A stretch of 42,033 nucleotides of DNA from Hydrogenophilales bacterium (GTDB lineage: Bacteria; Pseudomonadota; Gammaproteobacteria; Burkholderiales; Thiobacillaceae): positions 1 to 42,033 of the forward strand of contig JAGXGM010000051.1 of the NCBI GenBank assembly GCA_024636675.1, given 5' to 3'. This document shows positions 7,373 to 40,567 of this stretch, in pieces. A program made the position numbers and the translations under genes. The notes under the pieces are model-generated. The model was not told where the DNA came from. It made no database searches and saw only the letters and a list, made by a program, of their open reading frames with translations. Every line of letters starts with the position of its first letter. Position 1 is the stretch's first letter.

Positions 7373-7765
7373 TCACCGCCGGTTGATGCCGATCCGCCCC
7401 GGCCCCATGAGCACAAGCGCCACCGCAGTGAACAAAAACATGCCCTGCAGCTCCAGCGCCCAGCCGCCGTTTTGGGTGAGGCGGGTGAGTTCGCCCATGT
7501 GCGCGAGCGCAAAGGCGAACAGCATGTTGGTGGCGATCAGCGCGGCGCCGATGCGCGCGTAGAAACCGATGATGAGCAGGAGCGGCCCCAGCACTTCACC
7601 CGCATAGACGCCATAAGCGACGAATGCGGGCATGCCCATGCCGGTCACCATGCCCTGGATCGGGTCGATGCCGTTCCTGAGCTTGAAGATGCCGTGGAGC
7701 AGGATCAGGATGCCCAGGGTCAGGCGCAAGACCAGCTTGCCGACGTCGTTCAGGTTGTTGTGCAT
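7373..7765 (-). CDS. DoxX family membrane protein
   Basis: A 130-residue inner-membrane protein with four hydrophobic helices and the DoxX hallmarks: LRLTLGILILLHGIFKL at the start, GMVTGMGMPAFVAYGVYAGE in the middle, and LLLIIGFYARIGA. DoxX-like proteins are linked to thiosulfate:quinone oxidoreductase subunits or, in other bacteria, to oxidative-stress membrane complexes; the role of this stand-alone form is unknown. It is upstream of, and probably co-transcribed with, the broken alkB. The 7766-8030 gap to the divergent GGDEF gene carries an 11-base direct repeat (TTCGTGCACCG at 7921 and 7934) and nothing else I can name. Confidence 0.85.
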   Translation of the reverse strand: MHNNLNDVGKLVLRLTLGILILLHGIFKLRNGIDPIQGMVTGMGMPAFVAYGVYAGEVLGPLLLIIGFYARIGAALIATNMLFAFALAHMGELTRLTQNGGWALELQGMFLFTAVALVLMGPGRIGINRR

Positions 7766-8030
7766 CGCTACGCTCCCGGTTGAGGAATCAAGCAGTTCCG
7801 CCGCTTGCCGAGGTCTCAGGCTGGCAAGCCGCCCTGTTACGTCAACATAGAAGCTGAATTCCCGGCGTCAAATGCGTGGCAATTCTGCCGCGGCACGGAC
7901 TCTGCTTTAAACTTCGCTATTTCGTGCACCGGGTTCGTGCACCGAGCGACGCGGCTAACCCATTCGCCGATCGATTTCAGGAACGCCCAGCCAGGGATCC
8001 GGCCTTGCCTCAACCGTCAGACACCAAGCA

Positions 8031-9215
8031 ATGAACGCCCCGCTGATCATTTTGATGACTTCGTGTTTCGTGGCGTTTGCCATGGCCGGGGTGATGTTCG
8101 TCATTTCGCGGACTTACCCGAAAAACATACGCGGGTTGACCGACTGGAGCCTGGCGGCGCTCGTCATGGGACTCGGCCTGCCCCTGCTTATCGCCAAGGG
8201 CCATGTGCCCGATCTGTTCAGCGTTGTTCTCGCCACGCTGATGATCCTGGCGGGCTTCATGCTGATGAATGCCGGCCTGCGGAAGTTTTGCGGGATGCCA
8301 GCACGAATCAGTCGCGCCTTGCTGAGCCTGTTTGTTCTTGCTTATGTTTCGCTGTTCGTCTGGTTCACCTACGTGCAGCCTGATGTCACGATGCGGGTGG
8401 CGACCCTGAACCTGTTCACCCTAGTGGTGATTTTCGATCTGCTGAGGGTTGCGTTAAAGCAATTGCCGGGAACGGCGGGCCGCAATGTCCTGGTCTTTGC
8501 GCTGACGATCCTGATCGGTGCGCGCGTCGTCCGCCTGGCCAGCCTGATGCTCGGACTCGATCAGCCTACCGGCATTTTCGACGCCTCGGTCTTGCAGCTG
8601 GTCTATCTCGCGATCCCCACCATCATGATTCCGCTTGGAACCATCAGCTTCGTCCTGCTCGCATCGGAGAAGCTGCGCCGGGATCTGGAATTTACGAGCC
8701 GCTACGACGATCTGACGCAATGTCTCAACAAAAGGGCGGCCATGGAAGCGCTGCAGCGGGAAATTGCCCGCGCCAGACGCCGCGGCAACAAGTTCTCGAT
8801 CATGCTGGTCGACCTGGATCACTTCAAGAACATCAACGATACGCACGGCCACCTTGAAGGCGACAGAGTGCTGGTCGATTTTTCGAGGCGGGCAAAATCC
8901 TCTCTCCGGGAAACCGACCTGCTCTCCCGCTTCGGCGGGGATGAATTCATGGCCATCCTTCCGGACACCGACCTTGAGCAGGCCTCGCTGATTGCCCAGC
9001 GCCTGCATGAAGCGACAAGGGAAGGTCAGTCGATCGCCTGGTCGGTCAGCATCGGCCTGTCGGAATGGCTGGTCCAGGACGACTCGGTGGCGGCCTTGCT
9101 GACCCGGGCAGACAAGGCGCTATACAAGTCCAAGGCGTCCGGCCGCAATCAGACGCAGGCCATCTCGGGCCTGCCCTCCGCCCTCCTCGCACAGCCTTCG
9201 CCCATATCACCATGA
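8031..9215 (+). CDS. membrane-bound diguanylate cyclase (GGDEF)
   Basis: This 394-residue protein probably makes cyclic di-GMP from two GTP at the inner membrane. The N-terminal 210 residues contain six or seven membrane helices of an unassigned sensor type. The catalytic domain has an intact GGDEF at 302-306, the LDHFKNINDTHGH substrate/metal block, and a RETD inhibitory I-site just before the active site. There is no EAL domain, so it is predicted to be a synthase only. Its stop codon overlaps the methyltransferase start by four bases (ATGA), so the two are co-translated. The upstream ribosome site is weak. Confidence 0.93.
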   Translation: MNAPLIILMTSCFVAFAMAGVMFVISRTYPKNIRGLTDWSLAALVMGLGLPLLIAKGHVPDLFSVVLATLMILAGFMLMNAGLRKFCGMPARISRALLSLFVLAYVSLFVWFTYVQPDVTMRVATLNLFTLVVIFDLLRVALKQLPGTAGRNVLVFALTILIGARVVRLASLMLGLDQPTGIFDASVLQLVYLAIPTIMIPLGTISFVLLASEKLRRDLEFTSRYDDLTQCLNKRAAMEALQREIARARRRGNKFSIMLVDLDHFKNINDTHGHLEGDRVLVDFSRRAKSSLRETDLLSRFGGDEFMAILPDTDLEQASLIAQRLHEATREGQSIAWSVSIGLSEWLVQDDSVAALLTRADKALYKSKASGRNQTQAISGLPSALLAQPSPISP

Positions 9216-9862
9216 CCAACGCTCAATCCACCAAACTCGACGCCGCACACTTCGACGGCAAAGCCCGTCAATGGGACGAAAACCCGCTGTTCCGGGAACG
9301 CGGGCTGAAGATTGCCGAAGCGATCCGCCAAGCCGTGCCCCTGCGTCAAGACATGAATGCCCTCGATTACGGCTGCGGCACCGGCCTGCTTTCGTTTCCC
9401 GTCAGGGATGCGCTCGGCACCATCGTGATGGCCGACAGTTCGGGCGGCATGCTCGAGGTGGTGGCCGGAAAGATCGCCGCGCAAGGGGTGACCAACATGA
9501 CGCCGATGAAGCTGGACCTGATGGTCGACCCGCCGCCGGCACAACGCTTCGACCTGATCGTCACCGCGATGACGCTGCACCACGTGCCGGACACCGACCA
9601 CATCCTGCGCATCTTCCACGACCTGCTGAAGCCCGGCGGTTATCTGTGCATCGCCGACCTGGACAAGGAAGACGGCTCGTTCCACGGCCCGGAGGTCGAC
9701 GTGCACCATGGCTTCGACCAGGCCGACCTGACCCTGCGCACCGCACAGGCCGGGTTTGCCGAGATTCATTTCCAGACCGTGTTCAGCATCGCCAAGGAAC
9801 ACGCGAGCGGGACGCGGGCCTACCCGGTGTTCCTGATGACCGCCCGACGTCCAGGCGCCTAG
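9212..9862 (+). CDS. class I SAM-dependent methyltransferase
   Basis: A 216-residue cytoplasmic methyltransferase of unknown substrate. SAM motif I is ALDYGCGTGLLSF; the acidic residue of motif II is in MADSSGGM, followed by LIVTAMTLHHVPD and LLKPGGYLCIADL. The start at 9212 overlaps the GGDEF stop (ATGA), which fixes the N-terminus and implies translational coupling. A longer reading frame exists upstream but runs inside the GGDEF gene. Coupling a methyltransferase to a cyclase is uncommon. It may simply be operon economy. Confidence 0.85.
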   Translation: MTNAQSTKLDAAHFDGKARQWDENPLFRERGLKIAEAIRQAVPLRQDMNALDYGCGTGLLSFPVRDALGTIVMADSSGGMLEVVAGKIAAQGVTNMTPMKLDLMVDPPPAQRFDLIVTAMTLHHVPDTDHILRIFHDLLKPGGYLCIADLDKEDGSFHGPEVDVHHGFDQADLTLRTAQAGFAEIHFQTVFSIAKEHASGTRAYPVFLMTARRPGA

Positions 9863-9915
9863 CAGTCAGCCTCCTCAGGGGATATGCCGGTGCGTGACCA
9901 TCGCGCACACTGCAT

Positions 9916-10359
9916 TCACGACTCAAGCCGCTTTTCCGCCCAGGCCAGAACGGGCTGCAGGCGCGGCGGCAGCAGGCGCGCGGCCTCGCCGAAGCTGACC
10001 CAGCGCCACTCGTCGTGTTCGGGGCGCCCCAGTTCCGGCGAAACCGGCAGGGTGATGGCCGTGCGGGTGGTTTCTGCCAGGTAGTAGCGCGCCACCTTGC
10101 CCTGTCGATAGGGTTCGGTTTCGCAGTACGCCTTGCCCCAGTGGAAGGCGAGATCGCTGATCCCAGCTTCTTCCGCCGTCTCCCGGATGGCCGCATCGAG
10201 CGGCGTCTCGCCCGGCTCCAGCCTGCCCTTGGGAAAGTCCCCGTTGCGGTAGGCCCGCAGCACCAGCAGGCGCCCGCCGCTGCCGGCGCGGCGGGCGACG
10301 ACCACCCCGGCCGAGAAGGCGGGAGGTGGGGCGTCTGCTGGCGCTTGTGGTCCGGACAT
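9916..10359 (-). CDS. Nudix hydrolase
   Basis: A 147-residue cytoplasmic pyrophosphohydrolase. The full Nudix box is present: GRLEPGETPLDAAIRETAEE followed by AGI, matching G-x5-E-x7-REUxEExGU. The N-terminal strand AGVVVARRAGSGGRLLVLRA and the DFPKG turn before the box resemble the subgroup that hydrolyses diadenosine polyphosphates or nucleotides (MutT/Ap4A type), but the substrate cannot be fixed by reading. The start at 10359 is preferred because GAGG lies just upstream; ATGs at 10377 and 10380 are alternatives. It probably shares a transcript with the small gene upstream. Confidence 0.88.
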   Translation of the reverse strand: MSGPQAPADAPPPAFSAGVVVARRAGSGGRLLVLRAYRNGDFPKGRLEPGETPLDAAIRETAEEAGISDLAFHWGKAYCETEPYRQGKVARYYLAETTRTAITLPVSPELGRPEHDEWRWVSFGEAARLLPPRLQPVLAWAEKRLES

Positions 10360-30693: not shown

Positions 30694-31277
30694 GCGACCT
30701 CGGCGATTCGATCAGCAGCCCCGCAAGCGGCAAGCGGCTGCCATTCCGGAACCGCGCTATACGCCCTATACGGCGGATGCTTGCCCTTTTCGTCGGGGAT
30801 AGACCATCCGGCGCAAGGGCCATGCGCCGCCAGCCCGGAGGGCCGGGCAACCCCGGCGCGCCGCAGGAACAGCCTGGCCGTGCCGGACAGCGCTGTCATG
30901 GGGCATTCCGCTGCACGCCGCACAACAGCGGGCAATTTGAAAAACCTGGCTTTTGCACCGGTTTCACGGGATTTCCTCCAATGCAGTTTTGGACCGTGGG
31001 CGACTCTTCCCCTTTTTGAGCATAGTCACAATCCTGCGCGACCCGCTCCGCGGCGAGAAACGCCACATTGGCAGCCACGCGGGCTTTCCGCGGTCGGGAT
31101 CGTGCCACGCGTCGTCGGCCCGCTGCCATGCCCCGAATCCGCGGCCACCCGGCCGGCTAATGCACCTGAATCGTGTACCTATACTGAATTTTCGCCGGCA
31201 TACCAGCGCCGCATGGCAGCAACCGTGGCGGCGTGCAAAAAGCCGCTTTCCCACCTCACTTTCAAGGAGCGAGCATC
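30694..31277. other. 584-base intergenic region
   Basis: This divergent gap carries the promoters of the exporter operon (left) and the HbpS-like gene (right). I see no recognisable gene, riboswitch or terminator. Visible features are two CTATACGCC/CTATACGGC half-repeats near 30758-30776 and a slightly AT-richer stretch near 30940-31030. Several reading frames are open here, but none looks like a known protein. Confidence 0.6.
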
Positions 31278-31784
31278 ATGCAACTGCCAATCACCCGACT
31301 ACTGCTGATCGCCCTGGCGCTGGGCGTTTCCGTTTCCGCCCGGGGCCAGGACGATGCCACGTTCAGCAGCGCCAGCCTGACCCCGGACAGCGCCCTGAAA
31401 GCGGCGCAGGCCGCGCTCAAGACCTGCCGGGATGCCGGTTTCAATGTGGCCGTGGCGGTGGCCGACCGCAGCGGCGTGACCCAGGTCATGCTGCGAGACC
31501 GTTTCGCCGGCGCCCACACCCCGCAGACCGCCATGGGCAAAGCCTGGACCGCAGCGAGTTTCCGCACCAATACCACCGACCTCATCGCCTTGACCCTGCC
31601 GGGCACCCCCTCCGCCGGTATCCGCCAGCTGCCCGGCGTAGTGATTCTGGGCGGCGGTATGCCCATCGAATCGAAAGGCAGCCTGGTCGGATCGATCGGG
31701 ATTTCCGGTGCCCCGACCGGGGCCGATGACGATCGCTGCGCCAAGGCCGGTATCGATGCCATCCAGGTAGAACTAGCCTTCTAA
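31278..31784 (+). CDS. HbpS/GlcG family (DUF336) periplasmic protein
   Basis: A 168-residue exported protein of the GlcG/HbpS family, whose Streptomyces member binds haem; the general function is unsettled. Residues 1-23 form a Sec signal peptide (LLLIALALGVSVSARGQ). The fold motifs are LKAAQAALKTCRDAGFNVAV, VAVADRSGVTQVMLRD, GKAWTAASF, LPGVVILGGGMPIES and LVGSIGISGA, with GADDDRCAKAGIDAI at the end. AAGGAG precedes ATG 31278. It is probably transcribed alone; the 31785-31903 gap before the next gene has no terminator I can name. Confidence 0.85.
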   Translation: MQLPITRLLLIALALGVSVSARGQDDATFSSASLTPDSALKAAQAALKTCRDAGFNVAVAVADRSGVTQVMLRDRFAGAHTPQTAMGKAWTAASFRTNTTDLIALTLPGTPSAGIRQLPGVVILGGGMPIESKGSLVGSIGISGAPTGADDDRCAKAGIDAIQVELAF

Positions 31785-31903
31785 GGCTGCGCAGTTGCCT
31801 GGCTTATGCGGAGTAAAAAAACGGCCTGTGGCTGACGATGCCAGCTGTCGCGACGCGCTGGCTTGAATCCAGCGCTGACTGAACTGGAGGAAAGGCTCCC
31901 ACC

Positions 31904-32539
31904 ATGAAAGAGATTCTTCCCGGCGTGTTTCACTGGAAGACCTTCCACGAAGGCATTCAGGCCTATGTCCACTCCTGCTACATCAATGCAACCGACCCGC
32001 CGGTGCTGATCGACCCGCGCGTGCCGGCGCAGGGAATCGAGTGGTTCGCGTCGCACGGCGCGCCCCGGCACATCTACCTGACCAATCGCCATCACTACCG
32101 GCACAGCGGCCGCTTTGCCGCGCGCTACGGCGCCGAGGTGTGGTGCCACAAGGACGGGCTGCACGAATTCACCCAGGGCGAGAAGGTCAATGGATTCAGT
32201 CACGGCAAGGAACTGCGGGGCGGCATCCTGGCGTTGAAGATCGGCGCGCTGTGCCCCGAGGAAACCGCGCTTTATCTGTCGCTGAACGGCGGGCTGCTGA
32301 GCCTTGGCGACGCCATCGTGCGCGATCGCGGCAGACTCGGCTTCGTACCGGACGCCTACATGGGCGACGACCCGGAAGGCGTCAAGCGCGGCCTGCGCAA
32401 AGCATTTCGCCAGCACCTGCGCGAACGCGAATTCGACCACCTGCTGTTTGCCCACGGGGCCCCCTGGATCGGCGGCGCGAGACATGCGCTCGAGGTTTTT
32501 TGCAGGGAGCCGAATCGCCAGGCGCAGTCGCCCTCATGA
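31904..32539 (+). CDS. MBL-fold-like protein with degenerate metal site
   Basis: A 211-residue cytoplasmic protein with the metallo-beta-lactamase outline: an N-terminal HWKTFHEG region, LIDPRVPAQG, IYLTNRHHYRHSGRFAARYG, then ALYLSLNGGLLSLGDAIVRD and LLFAHGAPWIGG. The metal motif THxHxDH reads T60-N-R-H-H-Y-R with H67 next, so the first His, the Asp and the last His are replaced. It may bind one metal, or none, and so act as a binding protein or an altered hydrolase. GGAGG precedes the ATG. It is 51 bases upstream of the SDR-VKOR fusion on the same strand, so it is probably the first gene of that operon. Confidence 0.75.
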   Translation: MKEILPGVFHWKTFHEGIQAYVHSCYINATDPPVLIDPRVPAQGIEWFASHGAPRHIYLTNRHHYRHSGRFAARYGAEVWCHKDGLHEFTQGEKVNGFSHGKELRGGILALKIGALCPEETALYLSLNGGLLSLGDAIVRDRGRLGFVPDAYMGDDPEGVKRGLRKAFRQHLREREFDHLLFAHGAPWIGGARHALEVFCREPNRQAQSPS

Positions 32540-32590
32540 GGGGCGCGCAGGTTCAAACACGCGAACGGATGACCACTGAGCAAAAAATTC

Positions 32591-35080
32591 ATGGCTGAAG
32601 CGAAAAAAAGCACCAGCCGCAGCAAGAAACGCCCGGCCCCGAAAAAGCCGGTCGTGCTGATGACCGGTGCCACCGGATTCCTCGGCCGCGCCATCGGCCA
32701 AGCGCTGGCGGCGGACTACACCGTGGTCGGACTGGACCGCAAGCAGAAGGATCAGGCGCACGCAGAATCCGTGCGCTGCGATTTCACGTCGGACGATAGC
32801 GTCGATGAGGCGCTGCGCGAAGTGTGGTCGCGCTTTGGCACCCGGATCGCCTCGGTGGTCCATCTGGCCGGCTATTTCGATTTCAGCGGCGAACCCAACC
32901 CGCTCTACCGGAAGGTCAATGTCGAAGGCACCCGCCGCCTCCTGCGCAAGCTGCAGGCCCTCGACGTCGAACAGTTCGTCTACGCCTCCACCATGCTGGT
33001 CCATGCACCTACCGAGCCGGGGGTGCCGATCAGCGAAACCTCGCGCGTCGAGCCGCGATGGGTGTATCCCCAATCCAAGCTGGAGACCGAAAACGTGGTC
33101 GCGCACGCGCACGGCGCCATCCCCAGCGTGGTGCTGCGCATCGCCGGGGTCTACACCCAGACGGTGCAGCCACCGACGCTGGCGCATCAGATCAGCTGGA
33201 TCTATGAACGCCAGTTCAAGGGCCGGGTCTTCCCCGGCGAAACCTCGCATGGCCAGTCGTTCGTCCACCTTGACGACCTGGTGGATGCCGTGGTGCGCAC
33301 CGTGGATCGGCGCGGCACCCTGCCGCCCGACCTCAAACTGCTGGTGGGCGAGGCGACGCCCCTGAGCTACGCCGCGCTGCAGAACCGGCTCGGCACGCTG
33401 ATCCACGGCGAGCAATGGGAAACCGAAACGGTGCCCAAGCCGCTGGCCAAGCTGGGCGCGCGACTGCAGGACAAGCTCGAAGCGGTGGTGCCGGATGCCA
33501 TCGACCGAGGCAAGAAGCCCTTCGTCAAACCCTTCATGGTCGAGCTGGCCGACGATCATTACGAGCTCGACATCGCGCGCGCGCAGGAACTGCTGGGCTG
33601 GTCGCCGCGCCACGCACTACGCGAGGAACTGCCCGCCATGGTGGCGATGCTGAAGGAGGATCCGCTGGCGTGGTATCAGGCCAACCGGATTCCCACGCCC
33701 GAGTGGATCGAGACGATCGCCGAACACCCCGCCGCCGCGCACGCCTTGCTGGAGAAATACGAACGATCGGTTCGTCTGCAGCACCGCCAGAACCTGTGGG
33801 CGCACTTCCTCAACCTGGGACTCGGCCTGTGGCTGGTCACCAGTCCGTCCGTGCTTGGCTATCCGGACTGGCCGATGACCCTGAGCGACCTGGCGAGCGG
33901 CGCTCTGATCATGCTGTTCAGCCTGCTGTCGCTGTCGCGGCACATGGCATGGGCCCGCTTCGCCAATGCCGGGGTGGGCGTATGGCTGCTGTTCGCGCCG
34001 CTCGTGTTCTGGGCGCCCACCGCCGCCGGCTACCTCAACGACACCCTGGTCGGCGCGCTGGTGATCGGCTTTTCCCTGCTGGTGCGGCCGTCCCCGGGGG
34101 TCGGGGTGGCGGCGCGCACCACCGGCCCCGACGTTCCGCCCGGCTGGCACTACAGCCCCTCCGCCTGGACGCAGCGGCTGCCCATCATCGCGCTGGCCTT
34201 CGTCGGCCTCTACATTTCGCGCTATCTCGCGGCCTTCCAGCTGGGCCACACGCCGGGCGCGTGGGACCCGTTCTTCGGCGACGGCACCGAACGCGTCATC
34301 ACCTCCGACGTCTCGAAAGCGTGGCCGGTGCCCGACGCCGGACTGGGCGCGCTGGTCTACGTCCTGGAAATCCTCACCGGCATCATCGGCGGGCGCTCGC
34401 GCTGGCGCACCATGCCCTGGCTGGTGATGCTGTTCGGCGTGATGATCGTGCCGCTGGGCGCGGTGAGTATCTTCTTCATCATCATCCAGCCCATCGTGAT
34501 CGGCACCTGGTGCAGCCTGTGCCTGCTCGCCGCGGTGGCGATGCTGCTGCAGATCCCCTACTCGCTCGACGAGCTGATAGCGAGCGGCCAGTTCCTGCTG
34601 GAGCGGCGGCGGCGCGGCAAGTCGGTGCTGCTGGCCTTCCTGCGCGGCGACACCATGGAAGGCGGCAGGCGGATTCCGCCGGACGACTTCGAGCGGCCTG
34701 CGCGGGCGGTGGTCAAGGAGATGCTGGGCGACGGCGTCAACGTGCCGTGGACCCTCGCCCTGAGCACAGTCCTCGGGATCTGGCTGATGTGCACCCGGCT
34801 GGTTTTCGGCACCGAAGGCGCGCAGGCCGACAGCGACCATCTCCTTGGCGCCCTGATCGTCACCGTGTCGATCACCGCCATGGGCGAAGCGGCTCGTCCC
34901 GTCCGCTTCATCAACATCCTGCTCGCCGTCGCCCTGATGTTCGCCCCCTTCATGTTCGACGGCGGCAGCCTCGTTGCCGACGCCGCAGGCGTGGCGACAG
35001 GACTGCTGCTGATCGCCTTGAGCATCCCCCGCGGCCGCATCGACAACCCCTACGGCAGCTGGAGCCGCTATCTGGTGTGA
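32591..35080 (+). CDS. SDR - SPW - VKOR - SPW fusion membrane protein
   Basis: An 829-residue protein with an unusual domain set. Residues 1-20 are a basic tail. Residues 20-320 form an extended SDR (NAD-dependent epimerase/dehydratase) domain with the GATGFLG nucleotide loop (26-32), VYAST and the YPQSK active site. About 395-500 is a four-helix SPW-type domain (LGLWLVTSPSVLGY, GVWLLFAPLVFWAP). About 525-670 is a VKOR-like domain with the CxxC active site Cys641-S-L-Cys644 and the VITSDVSKAWPVPDAGLGA loop. The last 110 residues are a second SPW-like domain. The loop cysteines that shuttle electrons in four-Cys VKORs are absent. The SDR half faces the cytoplasm and the rest is in the inner membrane. 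A disulfide reductase follows 25 bases later. Confidence 0.85.
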   Translation: MAEAKKSTSRSKKRPAPKKPVVLMTGATGFLGRAIGQALAADYTVVGLDRKQKDQAHAESVRCDFTSDDSVDEALREVWSRFGTRIASVVHLAGYFDFSGEPNPLYRKVNVEGTRRLLRKLQALDVEQFVYASTMLVHAPTEPGVPISETSRVEPRWVYPQSKLETENVVAHAHGAIPSVVLRIAGVYTQTVQPPTLAHQISWIYERQFKGRVFPGETSHGQSFVHLDDLVDAVVRTVDRRGTLPPDLKLLVGEATPLSYAALQNRLGTLIHGEQWETETVPKPLAKLGARLQDKLEAVVPDAIDRGKKPFVKPFMVELADDHYELDIARAQELLGWSPRHALREELPAMVAMLKEDPLAWYQANRIPTPEWIETIAEHPAAAHALLEKYERSVRLQHRQNLWAHFLNLGLGLWLVTSPSVLGYPDWPMTLSDLASGALIMLFSLLSLSRHMAWARFANAGVGVWLLFAPLVFWAPTAAGYLNDTLVGALVIGFSLLVRPSPGVGVAARTTGPDVPPGWHYSPSAWTQRLPIIALAFVGLYISRYLAAFQLGHTPGAWDPFFGDGTERVITSDVSKAWPVPDAGLGALVYVLEILTGIIGGRSRWRTMPWLVMLFGVMIVPLGAVSIFFIIIQPIVIGTWCSLCLLAAVAMLLQIPYSLDELIASGQFLLERRRRGKSVLLAFLRGDTMEGGRRIPPDDFERPARAVVKEMLGDGVNVPWTLALSTVLGIWLMCTRLVFGTEGAQADSDHLLGALIVTVSITAMGEAARPVRFINILLAVALMFAPFMFDGGSLVADAAGVATGLLLIALSIPRGRIDNPYGSWSRYLV

Positions 35081-35105
35081 ACCGCGCCGGCCGAGAGGAG
35101 ACCTT

Positions 35106-36518
35106 ATGGAAACGAACACGCAAGCGCCCGAAAAATTCGATGCCCTCATCATCGGCGCCGGGCAGGCTGCAGCGCCGCTGGCCCATGCGCTGGGCGAGGC
35201 GGGCTGGAAGATTGCCGTCGTCGAGCGCAAGCATGTCGGCGGTTCCTGCATCAATTTCGGCTGCACCCCCACCAAGGCCATGGCCGCCAGCGCCCGGGTG
35301 GCGTATCTCGCCCGGCGCGCCGAAGAATACGGCGTGCGCACCGGGACGGTGGCGGTCGATCTCGCAAGGGTGCTGGCGCGCAGGAATGCGATCGTCGATC
35401 GCTTCCGCGACGGCATACGGGAAGGACTCGAGTGCGCGGACAAGGTGGAGCTCATTTTCGGGCACGCCGCCTTCGAAGGCCCCCATGTTGTTGCGGTACA
35501 GCTGAACGCAGGCGGCAGCCGCCGGCTCGCCGCCGATCACATTTTCATCGATAGCGGTACGCGGGCGGCGATCCCGCCCATCCCCGGCCTCGAGCAGGTG
35601 CCGTTTCTGGACGCCTCCTCGATCCAGCAGCTGGACCGGCTGCCCGAGCATCTTCTCGTCATCGGCGGCAGCTACATCGGGCTGGAGTTCGGCCAGATGT
35701 TCCGCCGCTTCGGCAGCCGGGTCAGCATCGTCCAGCGGGGGCCGCAGCTGATGAAACGGGAGGACCCGGACGTCGCCGAAGCCGTGCGCGAAATCCTGGT
35801 GGAGGACGGGCTCGATGTATACCTCAATGCAGACGTTCTGGGCGCAGGGCACAGGCAGCGCGGAGACGGAGTCATGCTGAATCTGGAACTGCCGGGCGGC
35901 CTGGTGCGGCTGGAGGGGTCCCACCTGCTGGTCGCCACCGGCAGAACCCCCAACAGCGACGACCTCAATCTCGACGCGGCAGGCGTGGAGACGGATGACG
36001 CAGGCAACATCCGGGTGAACGGACGGCTGGAGACGAGTGTGCCGGGCATCTACGCCATGGGCGACGTCAAGGGCGGGCCTGCCTTCACCCACATTGCCTA
36101 TGACGACTATCGGGTGCTGAAGCAGAACCTGCTGAAGAAAGGAGATGCCACGGTCGATACGCGGCCGGCTCCCTACACGATGTTCATCGATCCGCAGCTC
36201 GGACGCATCGGCCTCACCGAAGCCGAGGCGAAAGAAAGCGGACGCCGGATTCTGCTGGCGAAACTGCCCATGAGCCAGGTGGCAAGGGCGCTGGAAACGG
36301 GCGAATCGCGCGGTTTCATGAAAGCCGTGGTGGATGCCGACAGCGGGCTCATCCTCGGAGGCGCCGTCCTCGGCCTGGAAGGCGGCGAGTTGATGGCCAT
36401 GCTGCAACTCGCGATGATGGGCGAGTTACCCTACTCCTGCCTGCGCGACGCCATTTTCGCCCACCCCACGCTGGCGGAGTCGCTGAACAGCCTGTTCGCC
36501 GCGCCGGAGCAGGCATGA
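35106..36518 (+). CDS. FAD-dependent pyridine nucleotide-disulfide oxidoreductase (mercuric-reductase-like)
   Basis: A 470-residue cytoplasmic flavoenzyme. It has the FAD motif IIGAGQAAAPLAHAL, the redox-active pair C48 and C53 in GGSCINFGCTPTKA, the NAD(P)H site VIGGSYIGLEFGQ, the FAD motif GIYAMGDVKGGPAFTHIAY, and a C-terminal interface domain ending FAHPTLAESLNSLF. This is the class I disulfide reductase group (LpdA, Gor, MerA). It lacks the C-terminal vicinal cysteines and the N-terminal heavy-metal domain of MerA, so mercury reduction is not supported. It follows the SDR-VKOR fusion gene after 25 bases, with GGAG upstream, which suggests it supplies electrons to, or takes them from, a thiol partner. 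Confidence 0.9.
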   Translation: METNTQAPEKFDALIIGAGQAAAPLAHALGEAGWKIAVVERKHVGGSCINFGCTPTKAMAASARVAYLARRAEEYGVRTGTVAVDLARVLARRNAIVDRFRDGIREGLECADKVELIFGHAAFEGPHVVAVQLNAGGSRRLAADHIFIDSGTRAAIPPIPGLEQVPFLDASSIQQLDRLPEHLLVIGGSYIGLEFGQMFRRFGSRVSIVQRGPQLMKREDPDVAEAVREILVEDGLDVYLNADVLGAGHRQRGDGVMLNLELPGGLVRLEGSHLLVATGRTPNSDDLNLDAAGVETDDAGNIRVNGRLETSVPGIYAMGDVKGGPAFTHIAYDDYRVLKQNLLKKGDATVDTRPAPYTMFIDPQLGRIGLTEAEAKESGRRILLAKLPMSQVARALETGESRGFMKAVVDADSGLILGGAVLGLEGGELMAMLQLAMMGELPYSCLRDAIFAHPTLAESLNSLFAAPEQA

Positions 36519-36722
36519 TCGAACCGTCAGGGCGGACCTCTTACACACCACACCTGCAGGAGCGGCGCTTCGCCGCGATTGCGCAGCGTTGCTTCACCGC
36601 GAACCCCCGCATCGCACGACCGCCCGCAATCGGCCCGGGGGCGGACCTCCTACACCACACCCGTTGGCCGCAATCGGCCCGAGGACGGGCTTCCAACCGC
36701 GGCGGCCGCCGGAATGAGGGTT
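36519..36722. repeat. intergenic short-repeat cluster
   Basis: GGGCGGACCTC occurs at 36530-36540 and again at 36640-36650, each followed by a TACAC-rich stretch. CGCAATCGGCCCG occurs at 36625-36637 and 36669-36681. Between them, CAGGAGCGGCGCTTCGCCGCGA contains a GGCG-CTT-CGCC hairpin of the kind scattered between genes in Pseudomonas and Xanthomonas. The gap separates two convergent genes, so the hairpin may act as a bidirectional transcript end. Confidence 0.6.
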
Positions 36723-36724
36723 CG

Positions 36725-37291
36725 CTATGCCTGCATCAATTCGCACGCCACCGCGTCGCCCACCCGGATCAGGCCGCCCGTCAGGATCCGCGCATTGACG
36801 CCGCCGTGTCCGCGCATCGCGTTGTAGCCGCCCGGTCCCAGCACCGCTTCCATGCGCGAGCAGGGGTCGCAATGCCCCGTCACCGCCAGCACCACCCTGG
36901 CGCCGATGCGCAGCACCAGCGGCCGGTCGCGGAACAGGGCGTGCGCCGCCAGCAGGTTCAGCCCCGACACCACCAGATTGCGCCGCAACAAGGACGCATC
37001 GACACGCGCCCGCCCCGTCAGCGCCGCCACCACCGGCAGATGCTCGGCCTGGATCAGCGTCACCTGCCTGTTGCCGCCATCCACCCGGCTGCGCGAAGGC
37101 TGCGCGTAGTGGTCGCCTTCGAGCCCGCACGCGGCAATGGCCATGACGGATTCGACCGCGACCACGTCACCCCGGCGCTGCGGGCGCAGGCTGATCGCCT
37201 CGATCCGGCCCGGATGGGGAAAGCGGGCCGTCAGCTCGCGCAGGCCGGCTTCGCTCGGGGATTGCTCCGCCCGGTCACGTTCCGGGCTCAT
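36725..37291 (-). CDS. MOSC domain protein
   Basis: A 188-residue protein with a single MOSC domain, the C-terminal module of molybdenum-cofactor sulfurases and of YiiM/YcbX-type reductases, which carry molybdenum or sulfur species. Visible blocks are [32 protein letters not shown] and the Cys region [20 protein letters not shown] followed by the glycine-rich segment. There is no Fe-S domain. Its substrate is unknown. It is convergent with the disulfide oxidoreductase across the repeat cluster. Confidence 0.88.
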
Positions 37292-38424: not shown

Positions 38425-38497
38425 ATTAACGTGTGGGTAAGCAAGCCTGGCCCAGGCCCCGATCATAATGAACTGCAAGCCGAACGAGAAATCGCCC

Positions 38498-39823
38498 ATG
38501 TCATCAATCCGAATGCTGCAAGCCCTCCTTCTGACCCTGTCCCTGGGCACCCTGTTGAGCGCCTGCGCCAGGGACACCCCCGCCGCGCCCGCCAAACCGG
38601 CGCCGAGCGCCCCCGCTGCCAAGCTCGACACCATCGTGCTGGGCATGGGCTGCTTCTGGGGGGCGGAAAAGCGCATGTCCGAAGTGCCGGGCGTGGTCGA
38701 CGTGGAAAGCGGCTATGCCAATGGCGACATCGAGGGCAGCTACAAAGCCGTGCTCGCCCACGAGCGCGCCGTGCGTGCCGGCGACACCCGCCAGCGCAAC
38801 CATGCCGAAGTGGTCAAGGTGAGCTTCGACCCCGCCCGCACCACGCTGGAAACCGTGCTGATCAAGTTCTGGGAAAGCCACGACCCCACCCAGGGCGACC
38901 GCCAGGGCAACGACGTCGGCACCAACTATCGCAGCGCCCTCTACACCCATGGCCCGGCCCAGCAAGCCGTCGCCCTGAAAACCCGCGCCGCCTACCAGCA
39001 GGCGCTGACGAAGGCCGGGCGCGGCACCATCACCACCGAAATCGCCCCGCTCGAGAACTACTTTCCCGCCGAGGACTACCACCAGGACTACCTGAAGAAA
39101 AACCCCAAGGGCTATTGCGGCCTCGGCGGCACCGGCGTGAAGTACCCCGGCTCGAACAGCGCCGCGCCAACGACCGCGCCCCGGCTCGACGGCAAGGCCC
39201 TGGCCTTCGAGCGGCAACTGGTGGTGTTCGAAGCGGAGGATTGCGCGTTCTGCAAGCAGTTCAAGGCCGACGTCCTCGACCACTGGCAGTCTCCCGTTGC
39301 CGTGACCAGCACGCTGAACGCCAATCCGCCCATCGGCTGGAAGCTGGAAAAGGCCTTGTTCGCCACCCCCACCATCGTGCTGTTTGAGCAGGGCCGCGAA
39401 GTCTCCCGCCATACCGGCTACAGCGGCGAGCAGACCGCCTTCTGGAAATGGCTGGGCTTTCGGCTGCTGACGCCCTCGCAGCAGAAGATCGCCTTCGAGC
39501 AAGGCACCGAGCGTGCCTTCAGCGGATCGCACCTGGACGAAAAGCGCGCCGGCACCTTTGTCGACCCCATCACCGGCGCGCCCCTGTTCCGCAACAACAC
39601 CAAGTTCGAAAGCGGCACCGGCTGGCCCAGCTTTTTCGACCCGGTGGAGGGCGCCATCAGCCTTCATGAAGACAGGGACCACGGCATGAAGCGCGTCGAA
39701 GTGCGCAGCGCAAGTTCCGACATCCACCTCGGCCACGTCTTCGACGACGGCCCGCCGCCCACCCACAAGCGCTACTGCATCAACGGCAACGTGCTGAAGT
39801 TCGTGCCCGACGCGGGGAAGTGA
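38498..39823 (+). CDS. secreted MsrA - thioredoxin-like - MsrB lipoprotein
   Basis: A 441-residue envelope protein that repairs oxidised methionines. Residues 1-23 are a lipoprotein signal ending LLSAC, so it is anchored in a membrane facing the periplasm. The MsrA domain has its catalytic Cys52 in GCFWGAE. The middle domain has a thioredoxin-like C249-A-F-C252 pair and TPTIVLFEQG. The MsrB domain has SGTGWPSF and its catalytic Cys427 in RYCINGN, and lacks the zinc cysteines. Neisseria PilB carries the same three units in the order Trx-MsrA-MsrB, so here the thioredoxin-like unit sits in the middle. The start is chosen at the signal peptide. Confidence 0.93.
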   Translation: MSSIRMLQALLLTLSLGTLLSACARDTPAAPAKPAPSAPAAKLDTIVLGMGCFWGAEKRMSEVPGVVDVESGYANGDIEGSYKAVLAHERAVRAGDTRQRNHAEVVKVSFDPARTTLETVLIKFWESHDPTQGDRQGNDVGTNYRSALYTHGPAQQAVALKTRAAYQQALTKAGRGTITTEIAPLENYFPAEDYHQDYLKKNPKGYCGLGGTGVKYPGSNSAAPTTAPRLDGKALAFERQLVVFEAEDCAFCKQFKADVLDHWQSPVAVTSTLNANPPIGWKLEKALFATPTIVLFEQGREVSRHTGYSGEQTAFWKWLGFRLLTPSQQKIAFEQGTERAFSGSHLDEKRAGTFVDPITGAPLFRNNTKFESGTGWPSFFDPVEGAISLHEDRDHGMKRVEVRSASSDIHLGHVFDDGPPPTHKRYCINGNVLKFVPDAGK

Positions 39824-39913: not shown

Positions 39914-40168
39914 ATGCACAGCGAATGGCAGTTGCAGGAAGCAAAGAACAATCTCAGCCAGCTGATCAAAGCGGCTACAAAGGGCGAGCCCCAAGTCGTC
40001 ACCGTGCACGGCAAGCCGACGGCAGTGGTGGTTTCGGCGGATGAATTCGCCCGGCTGACGCGCCCGCAGCGCGGCAAGCTCTCCTCCGCGCTGCTGCGCC
40101 CAGACATCGCAGGCGAGGACCTCGACTTCACCCGCAGCCGCGACACCGGCCGGAGCGTCGAATTGTGA
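39914..40168 (+). CDS. Phd/YefM-type antitoxin (orphan)
   Basis: An 84-residue antitoxin of a type II toxin-antitoxin system. The N-terminus is the Phd fold (WQLQEAKNNLSQLIKAATKG, VVTVHGKPTAVVVSADEFAR) that binds operator DNA; the C-terminus (LLRPDIAGEDLDFTRSRDTG) is the flexible toxin-binding tail. GGAGG precedes the ATG. Its TGA overlaps a GTG that opens a PIN-toxin start (VSWLLDT), but only that stub remains. So the antitoxin is present without its toxin. Confidence 0.88.
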   Translation: MHSEWQLQEAKNNLSQLIKAATKGEPQVVTVHGKPTAVVVSADEFARLTRPQRGKLSSALLRPDIAGEDLDFTRSRDTGRSVEL

Positions 40169-40209: not shown

Positions 40210-40214
40210 CTCAT
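40186..40214 (-). pseudogene. possible RelE/ParE-type toxin stub
   Basis: The antitoxin gene on the minus strand ends with TGA inside ATGAGTTAA, so a coupled toxin start (ATGA overlap) exists at 40214, but the frame stops after two codons. The following sequence, read through the stop, gives TLTKEDA, which loosely resembles the LVYTKQAxKDA opening of RelE-family toxins. After that the DNA is antisense of the VapC stub. The evidence is position and a very short match. Confidence 0.35.
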
Positions 40215-40483
40215 GCCGCCGGTTCGCTGTCCAGGTGCTGCATCAGCGCCTCGACGCTGTCGTGGCGGATGACACGGCCCGCCTTGGCATCTTCCAGCGA
40301 TGCCTTGATGCGGGCCAAGGCGGCTTCTTCCTGGGACTCGAGCAGTTTGCGGTAGCGCTCTTCGGTCAGCACGACATATTGCGGGCGGTTGTTCTTGATG
40401 ATGTGCACCGGGCCTTGGGCCAGGGCATCATCCACGGCTGCGATGCCGCGACGCTTGATTTCCTGGGCGGGGATGACGTTCAT
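40211..40483 (-). CDS. Phd/RelB-type antitoxin (orphan)
   Basis: A 90-residue antitoxin-like protein. The N-terminus is a prevent-host-death type fold (VIPAQEIKRRGIAAVDDALA, HIIKNNRPQYVVLTEERYRK) and the C-terminus is a charged helix. AAGGAGG lies five bases before ATG 40483, a very strong site. Its toxin would follow to the left at an ATGA overlap, but only a two-codon stub is left. The gene lies 84 bases downstream of the RhuM-Fic gene on the same strand, so it might also act on that protein, although this is not its expected partner. Confidence 0.8.
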   Translation of the reverse strand: MNVIPAQEIKRRGIAAVDDALAQGPVHIIKNNRPQYVVLTEERYRKLLESQEEAALARIKASLEDAKAGRVIRHDSVEALMQHLDSEPAA

Positions 40484-40567
40484 GGCTGCCTCCTTGATCT
40501 GCACCGATTAATGCACCGTGTAGGGTATCTGTAAAGCATGGTTCTCGACACACCCCGTCGGCTTCGC

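Follow-up and report, generated by a model that had tools for sequence, protein, structure and literature searches.

A widespread SDR-SPW-VKOR-SPW fusion family and its gene neighbourhood in Thiobacillus

Three genes on the forward strand of a 42,033-nucleotide stretch of DNA from a Hydrogenophilales bacterium related to Thiobacillus (the whole stretch analysed, hereafter the window) encode a metallo-beta-lactamase (MBL)-like protein, a large fusion of SDR, SPW and VKOR domains, and a class I flavin disulfide reductase. The original prediction saw in them a possible thiol-redox operon, and the locus raises two questions: whether the three genes belong together, and what the fusion at their centre does. 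The features concerned are as follows.

31904..32539, + strand: MBL-like gene (211 aa ORF)
32591..35080, + strand: SDR-SPW-VKOR-SPW fusion gene (829 aa ORF)
32654..33625, + strand: extended SDR domain (residues ~22-345; TGxxGxxG, Asp49, Thr134, Tyr159, Lys163)
33797..34078, + strand: SPW repeat domain 1 (residues 403-496; four helices, by Pfam and model)
34181..34564, + strand: VKOR domain (residues 531-658; without shuttle cysteines)
34511..34522, + strand: Cys641-x-x-Cys644, the CxxC of the VKOR domain
34748..35023, + strand: second SPW unit (residues ~720-811; four helices; boundaries from the model)
35106..36518, + strand: class I flavin disulfide reductase gene (470 aa ORF)

The ORF coordinates confirm the close, co-oriented spacing, with 51 bases between the MBL-like and fusion genes and 25 between the fusion and flavoenzyme genes, and as all three ORFs are conserved in related genomes, they are not chance. 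A promoter scan of 31600-36900 found none (0.6 expected), and terminator-like matches in the same interval numbered 8 against 3.0 expected, one of them, on the + strand, falling within the 3'-terminal part of the MBL-like gene. The wider window includes an HbpS-like protein of the haem-degrading family just upstream of the MBL-like gene (31233-31784); an MsrA-thioredoxin-MsrB fusion (38468-39823) in the same orientation as the flavoenzyme and some 2 kb further downstream, possibly an oxidant-stress context; and two Phd/YefM-type antitoxin genes, at 39914-40165 (+; 59.9 bits) and 40214-40504 (-; 28.8 bits, narrowly missing the cut-off of 29.8).

The SDR-SPW-VKOR-SPW reading of the 829-residue protein proved right, every Pfam match being over its cut-off: Epimerase at residues 22-240 (E 2.6e-26); SPW (PF03779) in two stretches, the best at 403-496 (E 7.3e-22; 78.1 bits against 31.5); and VKOR (PF07884) at 531-658 (E 2.2e-24; 86.5 bits against 27.5), covering positions 2-133 of the 134 in the profile. 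An AlphaFold2 model (pLDDT 89.4, pTM 0.80) has one Rossmann domain and twelve helices that are read as transmembrane. Charged stretches occur before helix 609 (RSRWR) and near residue 672 (RRRR), and applying the positive-inside rule to the model, these would fit a cytosolic SDR with the CxxC at the outer face. The SDR part matches the UDP-glucose 4-epimerase 4zrm (Foldseek E 6.6e-15), and because the best 50 Foldseek matches are all SDRs, such as UDP-glucose 4-epimerases, the VKOR assignment rests on the Pfam match.

The window fusion carries the extended-SDR motifs GxxGxxG and YxxxK, and its Asp49 is aligned to the Asp that follows beta2 in GalE, a position taken here to be that of an NAD-type Asp. 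In fold, TGxxGxxG, YxxxK and this Asp it resembles extended SDRs of the GalE, RmlB and HpnA type. Unlike these, it is membrane-anchored, reaches the cut-off of none of the 25 NCBIfam models listed, and has Gly186 where GalE 7ys8 has an Asn, presumably a sugar-nucleotide substrate-site residue; Gly occupies this position in every row of a 69-row alignment. That the SPW repeat (PF03779) can occur together with VKOR or epimerase domains has been published; the accessible text of PMC8078820 pairs SPW with either one or the other, whereas the present protein has both on one chain, with two SPW units. No functional study of the SDR-SPW-VKOR-SPW fusion was found in the open-access papers searched.

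The fusion is a widespread, little-studied family that turns up in stress and copper-resistance islands of bacteria. Matches were found in 220 plasmid records, 117 of them over at least 80% of the query, and in genome contigs there are at least 554 relatives, which need not all be full-length fusions; the closest among the matches listed come from MAGs of Thiobacillus, Gammaproteobacteria and Hydrogenophilales. Its distribution is patchy, with matches in eight of 397 phylum-sample genomes at E <= 1e-60, the window's own genome included, one of which covers the C-terminal half only. The alignment and tree comprise 112 rows, or 110 distinct sequences, some rows being the same genome reached by two routes. 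Since the genome loci are the best 80 of the at least 554 relatives, the tree is weighted towards the window's clade; the later plasmid loci were chosen by sequence match, organism and whether they were annotated, with their context still unseen. Left out beforehand were L056 (broken), L003 (the same genome as L038), L192 (in two pieces), L166, and other partial or duplicate Thiobacillus loci. The tree splits into clades of 17 and 95 rows, referred to as the metal clade (a label given after the tree was seen) and the general clade, and the window fusion belongs to the latter. Neighbour counts given below are lower bounds, because some loci are short.

Cysteines are the defining feature of VKOR and DsbB enzymes. 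With the VKOR family (PF07884), including Synechococcus VKOR and human VKORC1, the fusion shares a full-length domain of four helices and, in most members, a CxxC at the start of helix 4. It differs in having an SDR and two SPW units attached, in that no Trx domain was matched, and in lacking the shuttle cysteines. The only cysteines of the window protein are 63, 641, 644 and 734, so none stands at a shuttle position, and this absence, noted originally for the window protein, is borne out across the family, no Cys occurring in the periplasmic loop 551-581 in any of the 112 rows.

The CxxC itself has a more complex history. The expectation that it would be conserved holds for 92 of the 112 rows and fails for the other 20, in which both cysteines are gone, with no intermediate; the replacements are Ser/Ala in 19 rows and Gly/Thr in one. 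On the tree, this loss requires a minimum of three changes under both LG+G4 and the default mixture model. In quick trees under LG+G4, the grouping of all CxxC-less rows as one clade was rejected (p-AU 3.5e-5), as was that of the two tested pairs among the three CxxC-less groups (p-AU 1.6e-6 and 1.2e-5). The mean pairwise identity of the VKOR domain, from at most 600 sampled pairs per group, is 0.71 with the CxxC and 0.70 without it, the highest of the four fusion domains in both groups, and T571, S572, D582, G586, Y590, W605, W610, S626, Q633 and P634 are invariant in all 112 rows. As the domain is equally conserved with and without the pair, something besides disulfide exchange conserves it.

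The SDR catalytic residues have their own exception. Tyr159 and Lys163 are kept in 110 of the 111 tree rows having the region, and in a Cupriavidus-type branch (L202, 5986-8571; L166, 133-2823) they are replaced by Leu and Met while the CxxC is kept, the opposite of what an SDR-centred enzyme would predict. Judged from the alignment, the SDR and VKOR catalytic sites appear to be separately dispensable. The accessible text of PMC4555120, a study of VKOR phylogeny, describes the two loop (shuttle) cysteines as fully conserved, treats all four cysteines as such, and culls sequences without known conserved residues, which may be why a cysteine-poor branch is not discussed in that text.

With an NAD-type Asp present and the sugar-site Asn replaced by Gly, the sequence points to an enzyme linked to NAD(H) that would take a membrane-soluble substrate. 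Tentatively, and at well below even probability, the fusion is best viewed as an NAD(H)-linked oxidoreductase of 12 helices, whose VKOR-like bundle would provide a quinone or lipid site and the CxxC an optional thiol outlet; we infer its topology, cofactor, substrate and electron path. A cytosolic, NAD(H)-type extended SDR would be carried on three four-helix units, two of them SPW and one VKOR-like. The VKOR-like bundle would hold a putative substrate that resembles a quinone or lipid and is soluble in the membrane, and this would exchange hydride or electrons with NAD(H). Where it is kept, the CxxC at the periplasmic end would serve as an accessory thiol outlet rather than the reaction core.

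A thiol role is nonetheless a serious rival to this NAD(H)-linked oxidoreductase, given that the CxxC is mostly kept, that Dsb, TlpA or SCO genes occur in copper islands and that flavoenzymes lie beside some fusions; retention of the pair in most rows may mean that thiol chemistry is the main function in most lineages. One such proposal, which we consider rather unlikely, is that the VKOR domain is a quinone-linked, DsbB-like thiol oxidase for one envelope partner, with the SDR regulatory or feeding it, and the CxxC-less branches decayed or repurposed. The 92 rows with an intact pair speak for this, as does the presence of DsbA, DsbD/CcdA, TlpA or SCO genes within 6 kb in five of the 17 metal-clade rows, four of which keep the CxxC. 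Against it, every row is without a shuttle cysteine, the undiminished conservation of the VKOR domain after CxxC loss is unlike what decay predicts, and L203, the fifth of those metal-clade rows, has lost its CxxC despite four thiol-redox genes beside the fusion. Among 56 Thiobacillus genomes, each searched with all three window proteins, the VKOR domain is over cut-off in eight, exactly the fusion bearers, and no other VKOR domain reaches it. DsbB is present in six of these eight, so the VKOR part need not be a disulfide generator, and its role as a DsbB replacement is not supported.

The metal clade is located in copper-resistance islands, and the neighbourhoods of the two clades differ markedly in their metal-related genes. 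Of the 17 metal-clade rows, 13 have copper, RND or thiol-redox genes no further than 6 kb away, against three weak single matches in the 95 general-clade rows, and for plasmid rows alone the figures are 13/15 and 0/8 (Fisher p 9e-5, kinship ignored). A copper-gene match near L006 proved to be a self-match of an HMBD stretch in the fusion and was removed from the counts. The proteins differ too: the median fraction of M+H+C in the SDR-SPW linker is 0.179 in the metal clade and 0.057 in the other, metal-clade fusions have a MMPGMSM-type Met-rich loop, some of their linkers carry MDH or HE repeats, and the L006 fusion contains three heavy-metal-binding HMBD domains between SDR and SPW. His/Met-rich linkers are also seen in the L194, L200, L202 and L166 fusions, while L204, also of the metal clade, lacks both a metal marker and a linker of this kind. 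The His/Met-rich repeats, HMBD domains and MMPGMSM loop are likely to bind copper.

These features would suit an envelope copper or stress enzyme for maintaining or sensing metal or redox state, its metal-clade linker binding Cu(I), which NAD(H) and quinone would serve to hold in one oxidation state. As an account of the fusion this is unlikely, however, since the window protein lies in the other clade, has no metal marker beside its gene and has a plain linker. In the general clade the neighbours are of another kind: by raw counts, LigD/Ku lies near 11 of the 95 rows and COX1 near 10. Leaving Thiobacillus aside, the LigD/Ku figure is 8/90, in which one genome is counted twice. Both look recurrent as fusion neighbours in unrelated bacteria; loci with LigD/Ku or a cytochrome oxidase beside the fusion include L070, L091, L113, L162, L033, L094 and L105.

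Whether the three window genes act together depends also on the two partners of the fusion. The third gene encodes, as proposed, a class I pyridine nucleotide-disulfide oxidoreductase, with Pfam matches to Pyr_redox_2 and the dimerisation domain and a CxxxxC at residues 48-53. These features are common to the mercuric reductase/RclA-like class I flavoenzymes (PRK06370 group), and four of its seven plasmid matches at E <= 1e-120 are annotated as mercuric reductase. It differs in having no C-terminal Cys pair, its only cysteines being 48, 53, 110 and 445, and it falls below the cut-off of every one of the 25 NCBIfam models listed, including the equivalogs for MerA (347.4; cut-off 454.45) and RclA (392.1; cut-off 740).

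The first gene is more obscure. A metallo-beta-lactamase fold has the motif HxHxDH, which is absent here, TNRHHYRHS standing instead in all 14 genus rows (two of which are one genome). The description of the protein as a degenerate MBL therefore stands as regards the altered histidine motif, but the MBL-likeness itself is below threshold, at 17.8 bits against the Pfam cut-off of 28.4 for PF14597; 12 of the 14 rows match this profile at E <= 1, the best at 5.8e-4. A PDB profile search gave only chance-level, antibody-like matches, and the AlphaFold2 model, from a 3-row alignment only, has a pLDDT of 34.5. The gene is present in 25 of the 56 Thiobacillus genomes, 19 of them without a close fusion, and was found neither in 24 genomes from other genera of the same order nor in any plasmid record searched. 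It is a resident gene of many Thiobacillus genomes and is not tied to the fusion.

Within this genus sample, six genomes (G000, G022, G071, G031, G011, G032) carry a close fusion (>= 77% identity) and another two (G065, G012) a distant one, while the genomes with a close flavoenzyme (>= 69%) number four (G000, G071, G073, G011); the G022 contig ends inside the start of another. All three genes are contiguous in only three of the 56 genomes, G000, G011 and G022, the third gene being cut by the contig end in the last, and as a conserved set the operon does not survive. G071 has its flavoenzyme some 2.7 kb downstream of the fusion, separated from it by other ORFs, and G063 lacks a fusion but has LigD and Ku along with the MBL-like gene. 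In G031 and G032, two of the six close-fusion genomes, the gene after the fusion is LigD (LigD and Ku confirmed by Pfam). Among L168, L169, L170, L175 and other Thiobacillus loci, too, the combinations of fusion, flavoenzyme, LigD and Ku behind the MBL-like gene vary. The place behind this gene is a slot with exchangeable cargo, and the trio would be a local mosaic in which accessory cargo, the fusion with or without flavoenzyme or LigD/Ku, has come to lie behind a resident gene.

Beyond the genus the pairing is rarer still. Counting matches of at least 300 bits within 6 kb, a close flavoenzyme accompanies the fusion in three of the 112 rows (L037, L169 and the window), all Thiobacillus, and in none of the 106 rows outside the genus. 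Four of these 106 do have a class I flavoenzyme of another kind on the same strand, no more than 6 kb away. In L048 and L090, which are unrelated hosts, the enzyme is directly after and directly before the fusion, respectively, with gaps of tens of bases, and both (7426-8838 and 8371-9921) pass the cut-off of the same dihydrolipoyl dehydrogenase NCBIfam model; the glutathione-reductase-like enzyme of L191 and the MerA-type one of L197 lie further off. A weaker match 9.5 kb from L045 was left out of the count. In 24 annotated plasmid neighbourhoods, other flavin oxidoreductases occur near five fusions (L033, L188, L194, L200 and L203; raw count), none similar to the window flavoenzyme at E 1e-8.

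The genus-wide and wider scans together speak against a conserved three-gene operon. In a looser form, flavoenzyme, VKOR and SDR would still pass electrons across the membrane as one thiol-redox unit, with the flavoenzyme differing by host. The close gene spacing in the window, the contiguous trios and the same-strand flavoenzymes of L048, L090, L191 and L197 agree with this, but it is very unlikely: any class I flavoenzyme lies within 6 kb in only seven of 112 rows (raw count), such enzymes are common in bacteria, G073 has a close flavoenzyme with no fusion (and with the MBL-like gene some 35 kb away), LigD takes the flavoenzyme's place in two genomes, and the CxxC is not universal. The original prediction had named fusion homologues that usually lack a disulfide reductase neighbour, and an unconserved CxxC, as findings that would speak against it; with most fusions lacking the neighbour and 20 rows lacking the pair, both are largely what was found.

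Least probable of all is that the SDR is a nucleotide-sugar or lipid-precursor epimerase or dehydrogenase of envelope biogenesis, with the membrane part an anchor and lipid site only, for although the nearest solved structures are UDP-glucose 4-epimerase-like and cardiolipin synthase lies near the fusion in two Sphingomonad plasmids, the GalE-site Asn is Gly throughout the 69-row alignment and a mere anchor would not need the degree of conservation seen in the membrane part.

For the family as a whole, the NAD(H)-linked oxidoreductase extends to a broader picture, offered with more reserve: a VKOR fold that would work without cysteines, in NAD(H)-linked transmembrane oxidoreductases with a quinone or lipid site, whose optional thiol pair would have been dropped at least three times, and of which one deep clade would have taken on a role in copper resistance, with a metal-binding linker of its own. 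A conserved VKOR-like domain without the shuttle pair, and with a CxxC repeatedly lost, suggests that this fold can use its quinone site otherwise, and the copper clade provides a testable phenotype for a family that is listed in databases.
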